From NCBI GenBank assembly GCA_012729555.1, contig JAAYCX010000063.1, positions 1 to 54,039 of the forward strand: a stretch of DNA of 54,039 nucleotides, in the 5' to 3' direction. The position numbers and the translations under genes were made by a program. Positions 1-4,043 of the stretch are shown here, piece after piece (the stretch's first letter is position 1; each line of letters begins with the position of its first letter). The DNA is from Acidobacteriota bacterium (GTDB taxonomy: Bacteria; Acidobacteriota; UBA6911). A model generated the notes under the pieces. That model was not told where the DNA came from, made no database searches, and was given only the letters and a program-made list of their open reading frames with translations.

Positions 1-159
1 AGGGTACGTCGCGAGGCGGCGCAGGTGGGCGTGGATACAAGGCGCGAGCCGGGAGGATTCCGCAGGCGTACTGGACGGTACGTCGAGGAATCCGACCAAG
101 CGTAACGCAGTAGACATGCCCGATTGCACCGACGCAGCAGGAGCTTCATGAATAATGCG
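1..159. other. tail of an upstream integron cassette, no assignable gene
   Basis: This stretch precedes the first attC-like site and should be the 3' part of a cassette cut by the window edge. One frame is open from base 2 to a TGA near 149, but it has no recognisable motif and I do not call a gene. A hairpin is visible: GGATTCC at 55-61 pairs with GGAATCC at 87-93, and inside it CGTAC at 67-71 pairs with GTACG at 78-82. Its role is unknown. Confidence 0.4.
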
Positions 160-374
160 GGCTAACTACCCGCTTAAGCTGACGGCGCGAAAAGCACGCG
201 CCGCAGCTTAGCGATACGATGGCGCGGACGCTACGCGCCGCGCCATCGGAGCGGCGGATATCATCCGCATGCTGCCCGGCGCTGGGCGCCGGCCATCATG
301 CGGATTCAGCGGACAAATCCTCCGGCAAGCAAGCTTGCCTCCGGATTTGCCGCTGATCCGCCGCTCCGTTATAC
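160..374 (+). repeat. attC-like integron recombination site A (long form)
   Basis: The candidate R'' core is GGCTAAC at 160-166 and the R' core is GTTATAC at 368-374. Just after R'' lies an imperfect hairpin, about 171-213, in which CGCTTAAGCTGACGGCGCG pairs with the sequence ending in GCAGCTTAGCG apart from an extra T and an extra A. Unpaired bases of this kind are what integron integrases read on folded attC strands. The 152 nt repeat at 219-370 lies between this hairpin and R' and makes the site about 215 nt, roughly three times the size of site C. The R' side points to the next gene, as in a normal cassette array. Confidence 0.65.
219..370. repeat. 152 nt foldable repeat, copy 1
   Basis: This segment matches 2013-2164 at 151 of 152 positions; the only difference is A315 against C2109. 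It starts with a 9 bp hairpin (ATGGCGCGG with CCGCGCCAT, 219-246). A larger unit follows, closed by 13 bp inverted repeats (CGGAGCGGCGGAT at 247-259 with its complement at 356-368). That unit encloses two more hairpins, ATCCGCATG with CATGCGGAT and a second one around the paired CCGGCAAGC/GCTTGCC region. It ends exactly at the GTT of the attC R' core. No coding sequence is credible in it. Confidence 0.85.
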
Positions 375-455
375 GGCGCGGACGGACTGTCGCGGTGGCC
401 GCTTGCGTGCCCGAAAGACGGCGGTCTCGGGCGGCCCACTGGTGTGAGGATAGAT

Positions 456-1953
456 ATGCAGCTCTCCAGCAAACTCCTGCTTACATGCATGCTCATTGCC
501 GTACCAGTTGCCGGACAGGAGGCACTGCCGCCCATCGTGACAGGCGAGAGTTTTGCCCTTGAGTCACGAATCCTGAACGAGGCCCGGCAAATCTATGTGG
601 GCATGCCACAGTCCTATGGCGAAGGAACAGAAAGCTACGGGGGTTCTTTACGTGCTAGACGGTGAAAGCCATCTTCATCACACAATCGGCACGACCCGTT
701 TTCTGGGAGGATTCCCTAACGATGCGATACCGCCACTGCTGGTGGTGGCGATTGGCACTACGAATCGCATGCGCGACCTGACGCCGCCCTCGGAGACGCT
801 GGCTGGTTCCTTTTTGTCGCAAGGAGGCGCAGGCCAGTTCCTGCAATTCATCGTTGAAGAGCTAAAGCCTCGGATAGACAAGGATTATCGTACGACCGGA
901 TACAGTGTGCTGATAGGGCATTCGTTGGGCGGCCTGTTTGCGATGTACACGTTCGTTAATCGTCCCGGATCCTTCGATAGCTATCTCTTGATCGATCCGA
1001 GCCTTAATTGGAATGATCAAGAGTTGGTGTCGGAAGTCGAGGCGTTCCTAGATCGCGATCAGGACATGAACGCCTCGCTCTATTTTGTAACGTCGAGCGA
1101 CGAGGACCCCGCGCTCGACGGATTGCGCGAAACCGTTGGGATATTGGAGATGGGGGCACCAGATGGACTTCGGTGGGGCTACAATCCGCTCGTGCGAGAA
1201 GAGCATGGCACCGTCGCCCTTCCCGGCATATACAAAGGCCTTCAATGGATCTTTTCGAACTGGAGAGTAGCTCCAGAGACTACCTTTAGCGATTTGCCCG
1301 CCGAGGAAGTCTTGACGGAAATCGACGAACTGTATAGGAGCAGTGGCGAACAATTCGGAATGGAGCGTGCCACACCGTACCTCGCATTCGAGTCTCTCTT
1401 GGGCTACCTGCTATCAAATAACCGCTTGGACGAGGCGGCGACGCTCACGCTGCGCCACGCTGATCGATATCCGCTCTTGCATAACGTCGTTGCGGGAATC
1501 GCAGGAGCCTATGCCTCCAGGGGGGATGACGAAGCGGCCGCAGAGTATTTGTTAGCAGTGCTGGACGTAGCACCGGACAACGAGACAGCCATAAGAGTTC
1601 TTGGGGAAAAAGTGTCTTTGGCACAAGAGAGTAATATGACGGGAATATTCAGCACTTTCCGTCTCAGCGATAAGTCAGGTGACATGTCCGGCGCGGAGAT
1701 TCACGTTGTCCCCAATCCCAGAGGATATTCGGCCATTGTGCAAGCTTCCGAAGGAGCGCCGGGATTTCCGGAGGTAGTTAACATCTTGGTTAAAGGTACA
1801 AATATCGTATTTTTGATACCTGAGGATTCTGCTTCGGGTTTTGAGCCCGGGAAGTACATTGGAACCGTAACAAAAGAGGGATTGAAGCTGCGAGGTCCCA
1901 AAGGCATCTACGAAAACTATTTCATGCCTCGAAAACACAGTTATTGGGAATGA
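456..1953 (+). pseudogene. cassette-borne secreted esterase (PF00756-like), frameshifted
   Basis: The ATG at 456 follows a GAGGA-type RBS and opens a signal peptide (MQLSSKLLLTCMLIAVPVAG). The reading then fits a Fes/EstD-type esterase up to about 640. There a run of five G (639-643) shifts the frame; removing one G restores SYGVLYVLDGES and joins the two halves. The downstream half has the nucleophile elbow GHSLGG (about nt 915-932), an acidic stretch SSDEDP, and REEHGTV, likely the catalytic His. A TPR-like helical tail follows from about nt 1370 to 1620, then a small C-terminal domain. Without correction the product is truncated after about 70 residues. The gene sits between two attC-like sites and is visibly less GC-rich than the chromosomal genes to the right. 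The frameshift may be real or an assembly error in the homopolymer. Confidence 0.75.
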
Positions 1954-1955
1954 AT

Positions 1956-2168
1956 GCCTAACTATGGCATTCAGCTGCCGGCGCAAAAAGCGCGCCGCAG
2001 CTCAGCGGAACAATGGCGCGGACGCTACGCGCCGCGCCATCGGAGCGGCGGATATCATCCGCATGCTGCCCGGCGCTGGGCGCCGGCCATCATGCGGATT
2101 CAGCGGACCAATCCTCCGGCAAGCAAGCTTGCCTCCGGATTTGCCGCTGATCCGCCGCTCCGTTCGGC
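1956..2168 (+). repeat. attC-like integron recombination site B (long form)
   Basis: The R'' core GCCTAAC at 1956-1962 fits the RYYYAAC consensus exactly. R' is GTTCGGC at 2162-2168, one base away from the perfect complement GTTAGGC. The site begins only two bases after the esterase stop codon. The proximal hairpin pairs CAGCTGCCGGCGC with GCGCGCCGCAGCTC. The second copy of the 152 nt repeat (2013-2164) again lies between that hairpin and R'. Confidence 0.7.
2013..2164. repeat. 152 nt foldable repeat, copy 2
   Basis: This is the second copy of the repeat at 219-370, with one mismatch. It sits in the same place relative to the attC hairpin and the R' GTT. The attC bases to its left differ clearly between the two sites, so this segment is far better conserved than the attC sequence around it. 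Confidence 0.85.
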
Positions 2169-2184
2169 GGAAATGAGTGAAGCG

Positions 2185-2676
2185 ATGAATTCATCTAGGA
2201 TGAAGAGGGTCGTGGCGCTTGCCACCATCGTTCTAAGTAGCGCTTGTGTAGGTCCATTTTCCGAGTTGTATGAGAGTCAATTCCCTGATGCCAATGTCGC
2301 GAGGGCCGCTGACCCCAGCGGATGGATACCGGACATTCTGCCGACTGATGCCACGAAGATTCGTGAGGTACACAAGATCGACAGTATCCGGACTTGGGGA
2401 TGCTATAGTACCGGGAATCCCGACGCAGTTCGCGCATTATTGATTTCCCAGAAGGCGCGCATCGTTCCCGGACCGATTGGCAATCGTCCTAGCGAACTGT
2501 TCCGCGACTTCTCATGGTGGCCTGACTCGATGAGTACGGGGAGGGTGGAAGCGTGGGAGTTCGCCGAACCTCCGGCCTGCTCCTTGTGCGCGGACAGCGT
2601 TGTCCGGGTAGGAATCGAGTCTACAGATGGGCGAGTGTGTTTTCACCGCGGTTTTGCCGCGAATCCTAGCTGCTGA
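2185..2676 (+). CDS. small cassette-encoded lipoprotein
   Basis: This encodes about 163 residues beginning 16 bases after the R' core of attC site B, the usual spacing in cassettes. The N terminus has basic residues, a short hydrophobic stretch and the lipobox VLSSAC, so the product should be a lipoprotein exported and anchored by its Cys. In-frame starts exist at 2173, 2185 and 2200; 2185 gives a normal n-region. The mature part holds several Cys (WGCYS, PPACSLCAD, GRVCFH) that could form disulfides in the periplasm. I do not recognise a family, and small exported proteins of unknown function are common in integron cassettes. Confidence 0.7.
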   Translation: MNSSRMKRVVALATIVLSSACVGPFSELYESQFPDANVARAADPSGWIPDILPTDATKIREVHKIDSIRTWGCYSTGNPDAVRALLISQKARIVPGPIGNRPSELFRDFSWWPDSMSTGRVEAWEFAEPPACSLCADSVVRVGIESTDGRVCFHRGFAANPSC

Positions 2677-2677
2677 T

Positions 2678-2749
2678 GGGCAACCCGGCGCGCTACTCGC
2701 TCAAGCAGGCGGCGCAAAAAACGCGCCGCAGCTAATCGAGGCGTTATGC
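2678..2749 (+). repeat. attC integron recombination site C (canonical size)
   Basis: This site spans 72 nt from R''-like GGGCAAC (2678-2684) to R' GTTATGC (2743-2749). The middle folds as GGCGGCGC with GCGCCGC around an A-rich loop, flanked by CTCG...AGC pairing with GCT...CGAG. It begins at the stop of the lipoprotein gene and ends 16 bases before the TIR gene start. It lacks the 152 nt repeat found in sites A and B and serves as an internal reference for normal attC size in this array. Confidence 0.7.
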
Positions 2750-2765
2750 CGACGAGAGCAACATC

Positions 2766-3188
2766 ATGGATAACAGCAATTCCTTCCATTACGACGTCGC
2801 GCTTTCACTTGGGGGGCCGGACCGCGAAAGCGTCGATGCCATCGCCCGTTCGCTGCAAGGACGCGGGGTCAGGGTGTTCTACGATGAGTTTGAACGAGCG
2901 GCTCTATGGGGGAAGGATCTTCAAGAGCACCTCGTGAATGTCTACATGCGGTGGGCGAGATATGCAGTCGTGTTCGTCTCCGCCGCTTACTAAGACAGGG
3001 TGTGGACTCGTCACGAGCTAAAGGCTGTCCTTGCCCGGGCCATGATAGAAAGACAGGAATATGTCCTTCCCGTTCGACTCGACGACACGGTCCTAGACGG
3101 CTTGCTGCCTTCGATTGCCTACAAAAATGAGTCTGACAAACCACTAACAAGAGCTATTTCAAATCGTGTTGATATTCTCGTAAAATAG
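2766..3188 (+). pseudogene. TIR-domain protein split by an in-frame stop
   Basis: The frame reads as one bacterial TIR domain of about 140 residues. It has an N-terminal beta strand YDVALSLGG, the FYDEFERAALWGKDL loop-helix whose Glu is the likely NADase catalytic residue, RYAVVFVSAAY, then WTRHELKAVLARAM and VLPVRLDD. A TAA at 2991-2993 interrupts it after SAAY, and the same frame resumes immediately with DRVWTRHEL, so one base change explains the break. The gene starts 16 bases after attC site C and is the last cassette; no attC is visible after it. Related stand-alone TIR proteins are NAD-cleaving effectors, often in antiphage defence. Here the product would be truncated unless the stop is suppressed or is a sequencing error. 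Confidence 0.75.
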
Positions 3189-3320
3189 CTGGAATAACTG
3201 GATCTCGGGAGCGTACCGATGCTGCTTCCCCCGACCGACTATCGGCTGGGGCCGAATGGGCAAAGAGCGCTTCAATGGATCAGCTGTAACCATGGGTATC
3301 AGGAAAAGGAGCAAAAATCT

Positions 3321-3650
3321 ATGTTCTGCCCGAAATGCAAATCAGAGTTTGTGGATGGCATCAATGAATGTCCAGAATGCAGGGTGGGGCTGATTGAAGA
3401 GTTGCCGCCCGATCCGAAGCCACCGAGGCCCGAGCTCTCTGATTACGCAGAAGTTCTTGTAAATCCAAGCCCTGGAGATGTAGCGATCCTAAAATTGATT
3501 TTGGATAGTAAGGAAATCAACTTCTTCATCGAGGGCGAAAATGCCCAGATATCGTTTGCCACACCAAAGCTTATGGTGCGGACCGATCAGGTGGAAACGG
3601 CAAGGGAATTGATCAAGGGTTTGAAGCTGTCGTGCACGGGATGCCCATAG
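3321..3650 (+). CDS. zinc-ribbon plus DUF2007 protein
   Basis: This gives 109 residues. The N terminus is a zinc ribbon (CPKC at residues 3-6, CPEC about 15 residues later). The C-terminal part matches the DUF2007 'putative signal transducing protein' pattern: a strand, a helix after PGDVAILKLILDSKE, and a final strand-helix MVRTDQVETARELI. The start is placed at ATG 3321 because AAAAGGA lies about 10 bases upstream and the zinc ribbon begins right there; the frame also stays open upstream to 3219. The molecular function of DUF2007 is not established. The 132 bases between the TIR remnant and this start hold a GC hairpin (CCCC..CCGA with TCGG..GGGG, about 3228-3250) and no attC that I can see. 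Confidence 0.75.
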   Translation: MFCPKCKSEFVDGINECPECRVGLIEELPPDPKPPRPELSDYAEVLVNPSPGDVAILKLILDSKEINFFIEGENAQISFATPKLMVRTDQVETARELIKGLKLSCTGCP

Positions 3651-3730
3651 GTGATCGAAAGGCATGGCAAAATTGTCACAAAAAGCATCCAAGAACCTCG
3701 AGTGTCGGCTGACAAGATAGGAGCTCGAAA

Positions 3731-3859
3731 ATGGACGTCCTCGGATTTATCTTTGGAATCATCGCGCTCAGCGTCGCCAGCGCGGCGCAAGCGCAGATTG
3801 CGGCCCTCAAAACGGAGGTCGAGACTCTCAAGGCGGCCCAGCAGAAAGGGACGGAATGA
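3731..3859 (+). CDS. 42-residue membrane peptide with coiled-coil tail
   Basis: This short frame has a strong RBS, AGGAG at 3718-3722, eight bases before the ATG. The peptide begins MDVLGFIFGIIALSVASA, one hydrophobic membrane segment. A short charged helix follows in which Leu, Ile and Ala recur in heptad fashion (IAALKTEVETLKAAQ), and the peptide ends in KGTE. The good RBS, the membrane-then-coil architecture and the clean stop make it credible as a small single-pass membrane protein. Its function is unknown. It lies about 80 bases after the DUF2007 gene and could be co-transcribed with it. Confidence 0.6.
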   Translation: MDVLGFIFGIIALSVASAAQAQIAALKTEVETLKAAQQKGTE

Positions 3860-4043
3860 CGTGGCGCAGGTTTCCCGACCCATGTTGCGAGCCGGCGCAT
3901 TTCAGGCGTGACGCTCGAGGGAACCGGGCACGAGTTCCCGCGCGGGGACCGGGAGAAACGCACCGAGGCGATCGTTCGGCATACGGCCGGAGGGCCGCCA
4001 CCGGCGGACGAATTTTTTTTCACCCTTGAGGAGATTTCATACA

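Follow-up and report, generated by a model that had tools for sequence, protein, structure and literature searches.

The 54,039-nucleotide (nt) contig JAAYCX010000063.1 of an Acidobacteriota bacterium (assembly GCA_012729555.1), referred to here in its full length as the window, carries near its start an integron cassette array. Two attC recombination sites of this array, A and B, each hold a copy of the same structured, gene-less element; a third, site C, is of normal size and lacks it. The features, all on the forward (+) strand, are:

160-218 (+): site A, attC of the upstream cassette; R'' box GGCTAAC (160-166) and hairpin, ending at the crossover G (218)
219-368 (+): first copy of the candidate mini-cassette, 150 nt; 154.4 bits with the R1 model, which was built from sequences including this copy
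219-246 (+): hairpin in which the cassette 5' end ATGGCGCGG pairs with the inner R'' arm CCGCGCCAT; R'' box CGCCATC, 241-247
368-374 (+): R' core GTTATAC of site A; the crossover point is G|TT, with the bar marking the crossover here and below
1956-2012 (+): site B, attC of the esterase cassette, from R'' GCCTAAC (1956-1962) up to the crossover point
2013-2162 (+): second copy of the candidate mini-cassette, 150 nt; model score 149.7 bits
2013-2040 (+): hairpin of the 5' end with the inner R'' arm, second copy; R'' box CGCCATC at 2035-2041
2042-2161 (+): branched unit of the second copy; closing stem 2042-2053 with 2150-2161 (equivalent of L''/L')
2057-2099 and 2101-2149 (+): inner hairpins of this branched unit, from the predicted fold and covariation
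2162-2168 (+): R' core GTTCGGC of site B
2678-2749 (+): site C, an insert-free attC of this family; R'' GGGCAAC (2678-2684), R' GTTATGC (2743-2749)

Below, G000 is the window's own genome and other G-numbers are further genomes; C-numbers are contigs of the genome concerned, and L-numbers are retrieved loci.

Positions 219-370 and 2013-2164 are identical at 151 of 152 bases, the sole mismatch being A 315 versus C 2109, while the attC bases flanking the two copies differ from each other. A preliminary description of this DNA had rightly pointed to the shared foldable segment and to the normal size of site C without it. It had also described a 152-nt segment ending at the GTT; the position stands, and the length is revised, as the mobile unit is 150 nt (ATGG...CCG) and the TT after each copy is part of the target. 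Each window copy is preceded by a complete ordinary attC stem and abuts the TT of an R' core. The comparison of an attC with and without the insert, which the preliminary description had sought, is available within the same genome. Site A with 219-368 removed and the flanks joined is identical at 58 of 63 positions to an empty attC on G000:C95; this match is ungapped, which indicates a clean insertion at G|TT. A third copy, truncated at its 3' end (query 1-116), lies at G000:C95:378-493.

The element folds from its first base to its last, into a 28-nt hairpin and a branched unit in which a 12-13 bp closing stem leads to a junction with two inner hairpins. This is the one hairpin plus branched unit proposed from the letters alone, and the fold is beyond chance. 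As RNA, the 152 nt give z-scores of -9.25 and -9.08 on the two strands; the bottom strand of site A folded as DNA gives -12.2. None of 200 shuffles equals the native value in any of the three cases. The predicted RNA fold energies of the element are -105 and -110.6 kcal/mol. In a MAFFT alignment of 14 sequences from 14 genomes, both sides change in 16 of 51 consensus pairs. A wider, model-fitted alignment of 51 distinct rows, among them truncated copies and a few matches to the palindromic unit on the reverse strand, has 92.9% of its cells paired (82.7% in shuffles) and both-side changes in 44 of 51 pairs (15.2 in shuffles); slid controls are only 27-47% paired. The closing stem changes on both sides in 9 of 10 pairs of this alignment. 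Helix 1, between the 5' end and the R'' box, does so in 9/9 pairs, with 96.2% of cells paired. Positions 1-4000 of the window had no match among the Rfam 15 covariance models at E values up to 1, and pairing of the upstream R'' with the downstream R' across the folded element is absent from the predicted folds of sites A and B.

In an integron cassette, the first bases and the R'' box of the cassette's own attC are complementary and pair once the circle forms. The element has this anatomy: its 5' end ATGGCGCGG has its complement in an internal box, CCGCGCCATC, just 5' of the strong stem, and the helix between them covaries at all nine pairs. The partner arm CCGCGCCAT directly precedes the closing stem; the 28-nt hairpin can therefore be read as cassette 5' end plus R'', and the branched unit as the remainder of an attC. 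The joined circle reads CGCCATC-stem-branches-stem-G|ATGGCG and is predicted to form a continuous helix of 21 bp that runs from R'' along the stem up to G|ATGGCG. Its attC-like site measures about 134 nt (2035-2162 plus 6), inside the 57-141 bp from R'' to R' given for canonical sites in the part of PMC3053210 consulted.

Canonical cores occur in relatives of the element such as L260, L269, L271, L129, L135 and L218. In three of these the branched unit lacks the hairpin; it is preceded by an open reading frame (ORF), which runs up to a canonical R'' or stops a few bases short of it, and is followed by a GTT:

L135: ACCTAAC...GTTATCC, ORF of at least 307 codons
L129: GCCTAAC...GTTATGC, ORF of 105 codons
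L218: CCCAAC...GTTGGGC, ORF of 116 codons

Canonical-core mini-cassettes are seen by eye in G434, G112 and G446, in the forms G|TTGCCGCTCCG...CGGAGCGGCAAC and G|TTCTCCC...GGGAGAAC. In L260, also by eye, a mini-cassette of the G|TTGCCGCTCCG kind is followed in tandem by one of different sequence (TTCTCC...GGAGAAC) and then by G|TTATACG; the predicted fold of L260 includes the closing stem. Both these mini-cassettes and the ORF cassettes that end in the branched unit support the reading of the element as a cassette made of a recombination site. A diverged branch is represented in G494 by L264 and L272, with ends ATGGGCCGA/TCGGCCCATC and ATGGCCCGA/TCGGGCCATC. The ends covary in this branch, and both copies have a further hairpin in the loop and are preceded by an attC half.

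The left neighbour of the element is G in 42 of 44 copies. On the right, 41 ends give TT 29 times, AT 9 times, and AC, TG and CT once each; 33 of them have a purine at +3, and 27 have C at +6. This count excludes copies that are cut by a contig end or degraded on the right and includes some without the ATGG-type 5' end. Judged by their flanks, insertions follow G|WTRRRY, which corresponds to the integron core G|TTRRRY, G|AT being the minority form. Beyond this motif the flanks are nearly uninformative (at most 0.36 bits at any left position). The review PMC4618277, in the part consulted, gives the integration-site consensus sequences GWTMW and GNT for Tn21 integrase and IntI1. TT follows 17 and AT follows 2 of the 19 distinct uncut copies that score at least 100 bits and have a readable right flank (L076, which equals L075, L091 with 1 nt of flank, and the cut copies L131, L082, L132 and L093 are left out). 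A second, more diverged set of 16 copies from the phylum of G104 has G on the left in 15. The element is thus found between the G and TT of core sites in cassette orientation, as a gene-less cassette would be, with a minority of copies at G|AT (9/41) or elsewhere.

About a third of the left flanks are recognisable as attC. An attC half, meaning an AAC box and a hairpin that ends at the insertion point, precedes 16 of 44 insertion points; among control GWT positions of these loci, 28 of 1415 have one (Fisher's test, p = 6e-15). Sites A and B are both positive. The threshold of -0.2 kcal/mol per base was chosen among five, all of which were significant. The 44 points are those with a readable left end, excluding copies without the ATGG-type 5' end (such as L127, L129, L130, L135, L136 and L141), L072 with 2 nt of flank, and duplicate loci. 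Applied unchanged to the second set, the test is positive in 4/16 against 23/640 controls (p = 0.003); these are 16 of 22 copies, as L259, L263, L265, L266, L268 and L271 have no clear 5' boundary of the type. A first, stricter attC scan (9/44 against 91/1925 controls) missed sites evident by eye, such as A, because it demanded a RYYYAAC-like box, and the looser box plus hairpin was then used. An additional short attC pattern was too common to discriminate.

Other left flanks are AT-rich and look like attI by eye. In G174 and G017 the element directly follows ...TAATCAATAG, 170 and 183 nt past the end of the intI match, which in G017 is in pieces. In G110 (titled Ignavibacteriales) and G016 an empty ...TAATCAATAG|TTAG lies 162 and 169 nt past intI. 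By this comparison of sequences, the element fills the attI beside intI in the first two genomes, and the other two have an empty attI with its first cassette. The integrase gene is oriented towards the array in all four, an orientation reported for Treponema in the consulted part of PMC3607928. The suggestion of a non-autonomous element that targets attC agrees with the copies in attC and has to be widened to attI and, less often, G|AT sites. On another contig of G017, C204 (L050), an intI-adjacent stretch of about 188 bp from C134 (L048) is repeated at 91% identity and ends in ...TAATCAATAG; other sequence replaces intI there, and the element follows again, internally deleted.

The element is widely distributed. 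An exact 30-nt pattern for the left hairpin, with one free base, matches 24 stretches in the GTDB collection and one viral contig. Record titles include Latescibacterota, Proteobacteria, Deltaproteobacteria, Acidobacteria, Rokubacteria, Syntrophaceae, Thermodesulfobacteriaceae or Thermodesulfobacteriota, Neomarinimicrobiota, Ignavibacteriales, Halanaerobiaceae, Methylomirabilis, KSB1, Bacterium HR08 and plain 'bacterium'. By these labels the carriers span about nine phyla, a list that binning errors in metagenome-assembled genomes (MAGs) may swell. As the pattern is exact, it says nothing on the number of diverged copies. A covariance model (E up to 0.01) finds the element in 20 of 21 chosen genomes, most of which were picked for holding the pattern; G110, which is one of the 23 carriers on the strength of 31 bases at the end of a contig, was missed by this search. 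Of 396 genomes in the phylum of the window, only 6 have the element at E up to 1e-4, the window's own genome included, and both site C and the C95 attC are without it; this disposes of the idea that the segment belongs to every attC of the lineage. The phylum of the Rokubacteria MAG G104 has it in 14 of 95 genomes. Many carriers hold multiple copies, and G017 and G016 are listed in the class to which the window's genome belongs.

An exact 25-base pattern from inside a window copy has no match in the GTDB collection. Plasmid and phage collections gave no useful match; one partial match, to a Sphingomonas plasmid, covers 44 query bases. Among viral contigs, two right-end patterns match 14 and 31 and the joined-end pattern matches 7; these are treated as chance, since they have no structure-model support (best 22.8 bits). 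One viral contig, L093, carries a real copy. In G107, four contigs (C42, C136, C192 and C205; L222, L225, L226 and L223) each terminate inside a copy of the element, where the assembly probably breaks at the repeat; the four copies have four different left flanks, all of which fail the attC test.

The element is a real, widespread and highly structured mobile unit of integron sites, most likely a family of gene-less mini-cassettes with an atypical core. We put at about 0.73 the probability that it is a gene-less integron cassette, consisting of nearly nothing but a recombination site, which is spread by integrases as a satellite. Among the three options of the preliminary description, this favours a merger of two, the non-autonomous element and the ORF-less cassette; the plain long attC subclass falls away in view of the empty site and of the 109 in 114 integrase-bearing genomes of the phylum in which the model has no match. 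The position, orientation and targets of the element are, as far as sequence can tell, those of an integron integrase, and we infer that IntI itself mobilises it. A match to intI over the family cut-off is present in 5 of 6 carriers against 109 of 390 other genomes in the phylum sample (p = 0.009). The integrase would recognise the folded circle or a folded single strand of the element and would recombine it into G|WT targets, as for cassettes; the gene-less element would in this way spread as an integron satellite. After insertion it is predicted to stay put with inefficient excision, because its R'' is then taken up by pairing with its own 5' end, and the R' belongs to the next cassette. A more ambitious version is favoured by only slightly better than even odds: a phylum-hopping integron satellite with a folded G|AT-core site that enters attI, attC and secondary G|WT positions by means of the integrases of its many hosts, and that perhaps locks a cassette boundary.

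Several observations weigh against the satellite cassette. The core of the main family is GAT/ATC (CGCCATC / GATGGCG) rather than the canonical RYYYAAC / GTTRRRY, and the predicted circle stem has none of the extrahelical bases that matter for IntI according to the consulted part of PMC3053210. The canonical-core relative L271 has no closing stem in its predicted fold, and complementary 5' ends for the L129, L135 and L218 cassettes were not found in the 0.6-1 kb upstream. No GAT-type circle junction or tandem was found with the joined-end pattern in the retrieved loci and viral contigs; its matches are insertion flanks that end in CCG by chance, an inverted stretch inside copy L257, and the unsupported viral contigs. 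Over half of the left flanks fail the attC test and are not proven to be attI either. Right neighbours in the second set are ragged (TT 8, AT 1 and other 7 of 16), which suggests that low-scoring copies have ragged ends. Finally, intI exceeds the family cut-off in only 14 of 23 carrier genomes, and G112 has several copies and no detectable intI. The nine carriers without intI may be incomplete MAGs, may have lost their integrases, or may rely on another enzyme.

These nine genomes would also fit a miniature inverted-repeat transposable element (MITE) that depends on some other recombinase or on a transposon and not on IntI, for example an attC-targeting element of the IS1111/IS110 type with a preference for folded integron sites. 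Several copies at G|AT without an attC half would fit this as well, as would L081 and L088, where the left hairpin runs into unrelated sequence; in L088, however, there is no right-end match in the 4.8 kb past the left end, in a search not specifically aimed at longer elements with the same ends. IS1111 targeting uses an RNA that matches a longer target (PMC11187229, in the part consulted), whereas the flanks of the element share little beyond G|WTRRRY, with no extended, guide-RNA-matched target. The exact position is moreover the IntI crossover in attC and attI alike, and relatives with canonical GTT/AAC cassette ends exist. A MITE origin is for these reasons unlikely. An origin from a group II intron or from an IS1111 element itself was put aside, given the wrong insertion point or orientation, no encoded protein and no extended target.

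A further possibility is a native long attC subclass that has the branched unit as its usual variable stem and simply includes sites A and B. The unit does occur in that position in L129, L135 and L218, after an ORF and a canonical R'' (GCCTAAC, ACCTAAC and CCCAAC) and ending at GTT; its resemblance to an ordinary attC in these loci means that the large-stem idea may hold for the ancestry of the element. At A and B, however, a complete ordinary attC stem already precedes the insert, and the empty version of A largely refutes a native stem. The near-identity of the copies within different surrounding attCs, their presence under other phylum labels, and the 109 of 114 genomes without a model match (strict filters lose weak matches) all point the same way, and we regard this explanation as very improbable. 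A domesticated regulatory cassette, such as a transcription attenuator, a terminator or a structured RNA that sits between cassettes and is retained for its fold and not for mobility, has even slightly poorer prospects. It would account for the very stable RNA fold, and Vibrio offers gene-less cassettes with promoter activity (PMC11014356, in the part consulted). The element nevertheless has no Rfam match, copies also lie at sites without an attC half, and conservation tracks the cassette ends and the stems that would be needed for recombination. A role for the host could be additional to mobility.

Several known systems resemble the proposed satellite cassette in part; the descriptions used here come from portions of the cited papers. 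The gene-less cassettes of the Vibrio superintegron likewise have no gene and a recombination site at the end, and integrate at G|TT in an array; most of those tested have promoter activity, and they are treated as ended by an attC with a GTT core (PMC11014356). Unlike these, the element is a recurring, conserved 150-nt unit found under many phylum labels, with a G|AT core, a branched, bulge-free stem and hardly any cargo. Group IIC-attC introns also insert at folded attC sites and elsewhere, mostly at TTGT/T in R'' on the bottom strand and in opposite orientation, and have an intron-encoded protein (PMC7923331); the element instead sits at the R' crossover in cassette orientation and is far shorter (150 nt). 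The IS1111-family elements ISKpn4 and ISPst6 target one attC end and have a structured non-coding region, with a circular intermediate for ISKpn4; they encode a transposase and use a guide RNA (PMC11187229). The mini-cassette, in contrast, has no ORF and little flank match beyond the core, and it also uses attI. The attC sites of Treponema succinifaciens are similarly long and folded (PMC3607928), although they are native sites of gene cassettes and the element lies inside a complete ordinary attC. As far as these descriptions go, none of the gene-less cassettes, group IIC introns or IS1111 elements has the anatomy of the element. Among the open-licence PMC papers listed by literature searches, no title or abstract opening describes such an element; subscription papers and preprints lie outside this scope, and absence from print is not established by it.

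The cassette after site A (456-1953) encodes a putative esterase (PF00756, E = 1.6e-13). Its ATG at 456, with a signal-like start by eye, is in another frame than the ORF at 595-1953; the gene therefore looks frameshifted. The cassette after site C (2766-3188) encodes a TIR-domain-like protein, with a PF13676 match (E = 1.2e-5) that is below the curated cut-off and covers the first piece only; an in-frame TAA lies at 2991. Elsewhere in this genome, the sequence directly after intI on G000:C12 (L065) has a near copy, by eye, on G000:C95 (L003:1680-1740). The whole-genome search lists no intI on C95, so that this seems to be a second array start. Between intI and the first attC on G000:C12 (L065) there is an ORF which, by eye, looks like an IS200-type transposase.

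Integrons are usually viewed as platforms for gene capture; a conserved gene-less cassette would show that selfish elements live on them as well. The element is also a natural test of what IntI requires of its substrate, as core triplet, extrahelical bases and spacers are altered while the insertion points are still those of IntI. If the satellite reading is true, IntI accepts a site that is branched, lacks bulges and has a core other than GTT, and the element is, to our knowledge, among the smallest mobile elements that use a tyrosine recombinase. Its insertions may split or freeze cassette boundaries, and it could mislead attC finders that expect canonical cores. Since the same left hairpin occurs under several phylum labels, the element would, if binning errors are excluded, serve as a tracer of cassette flow between phyla.
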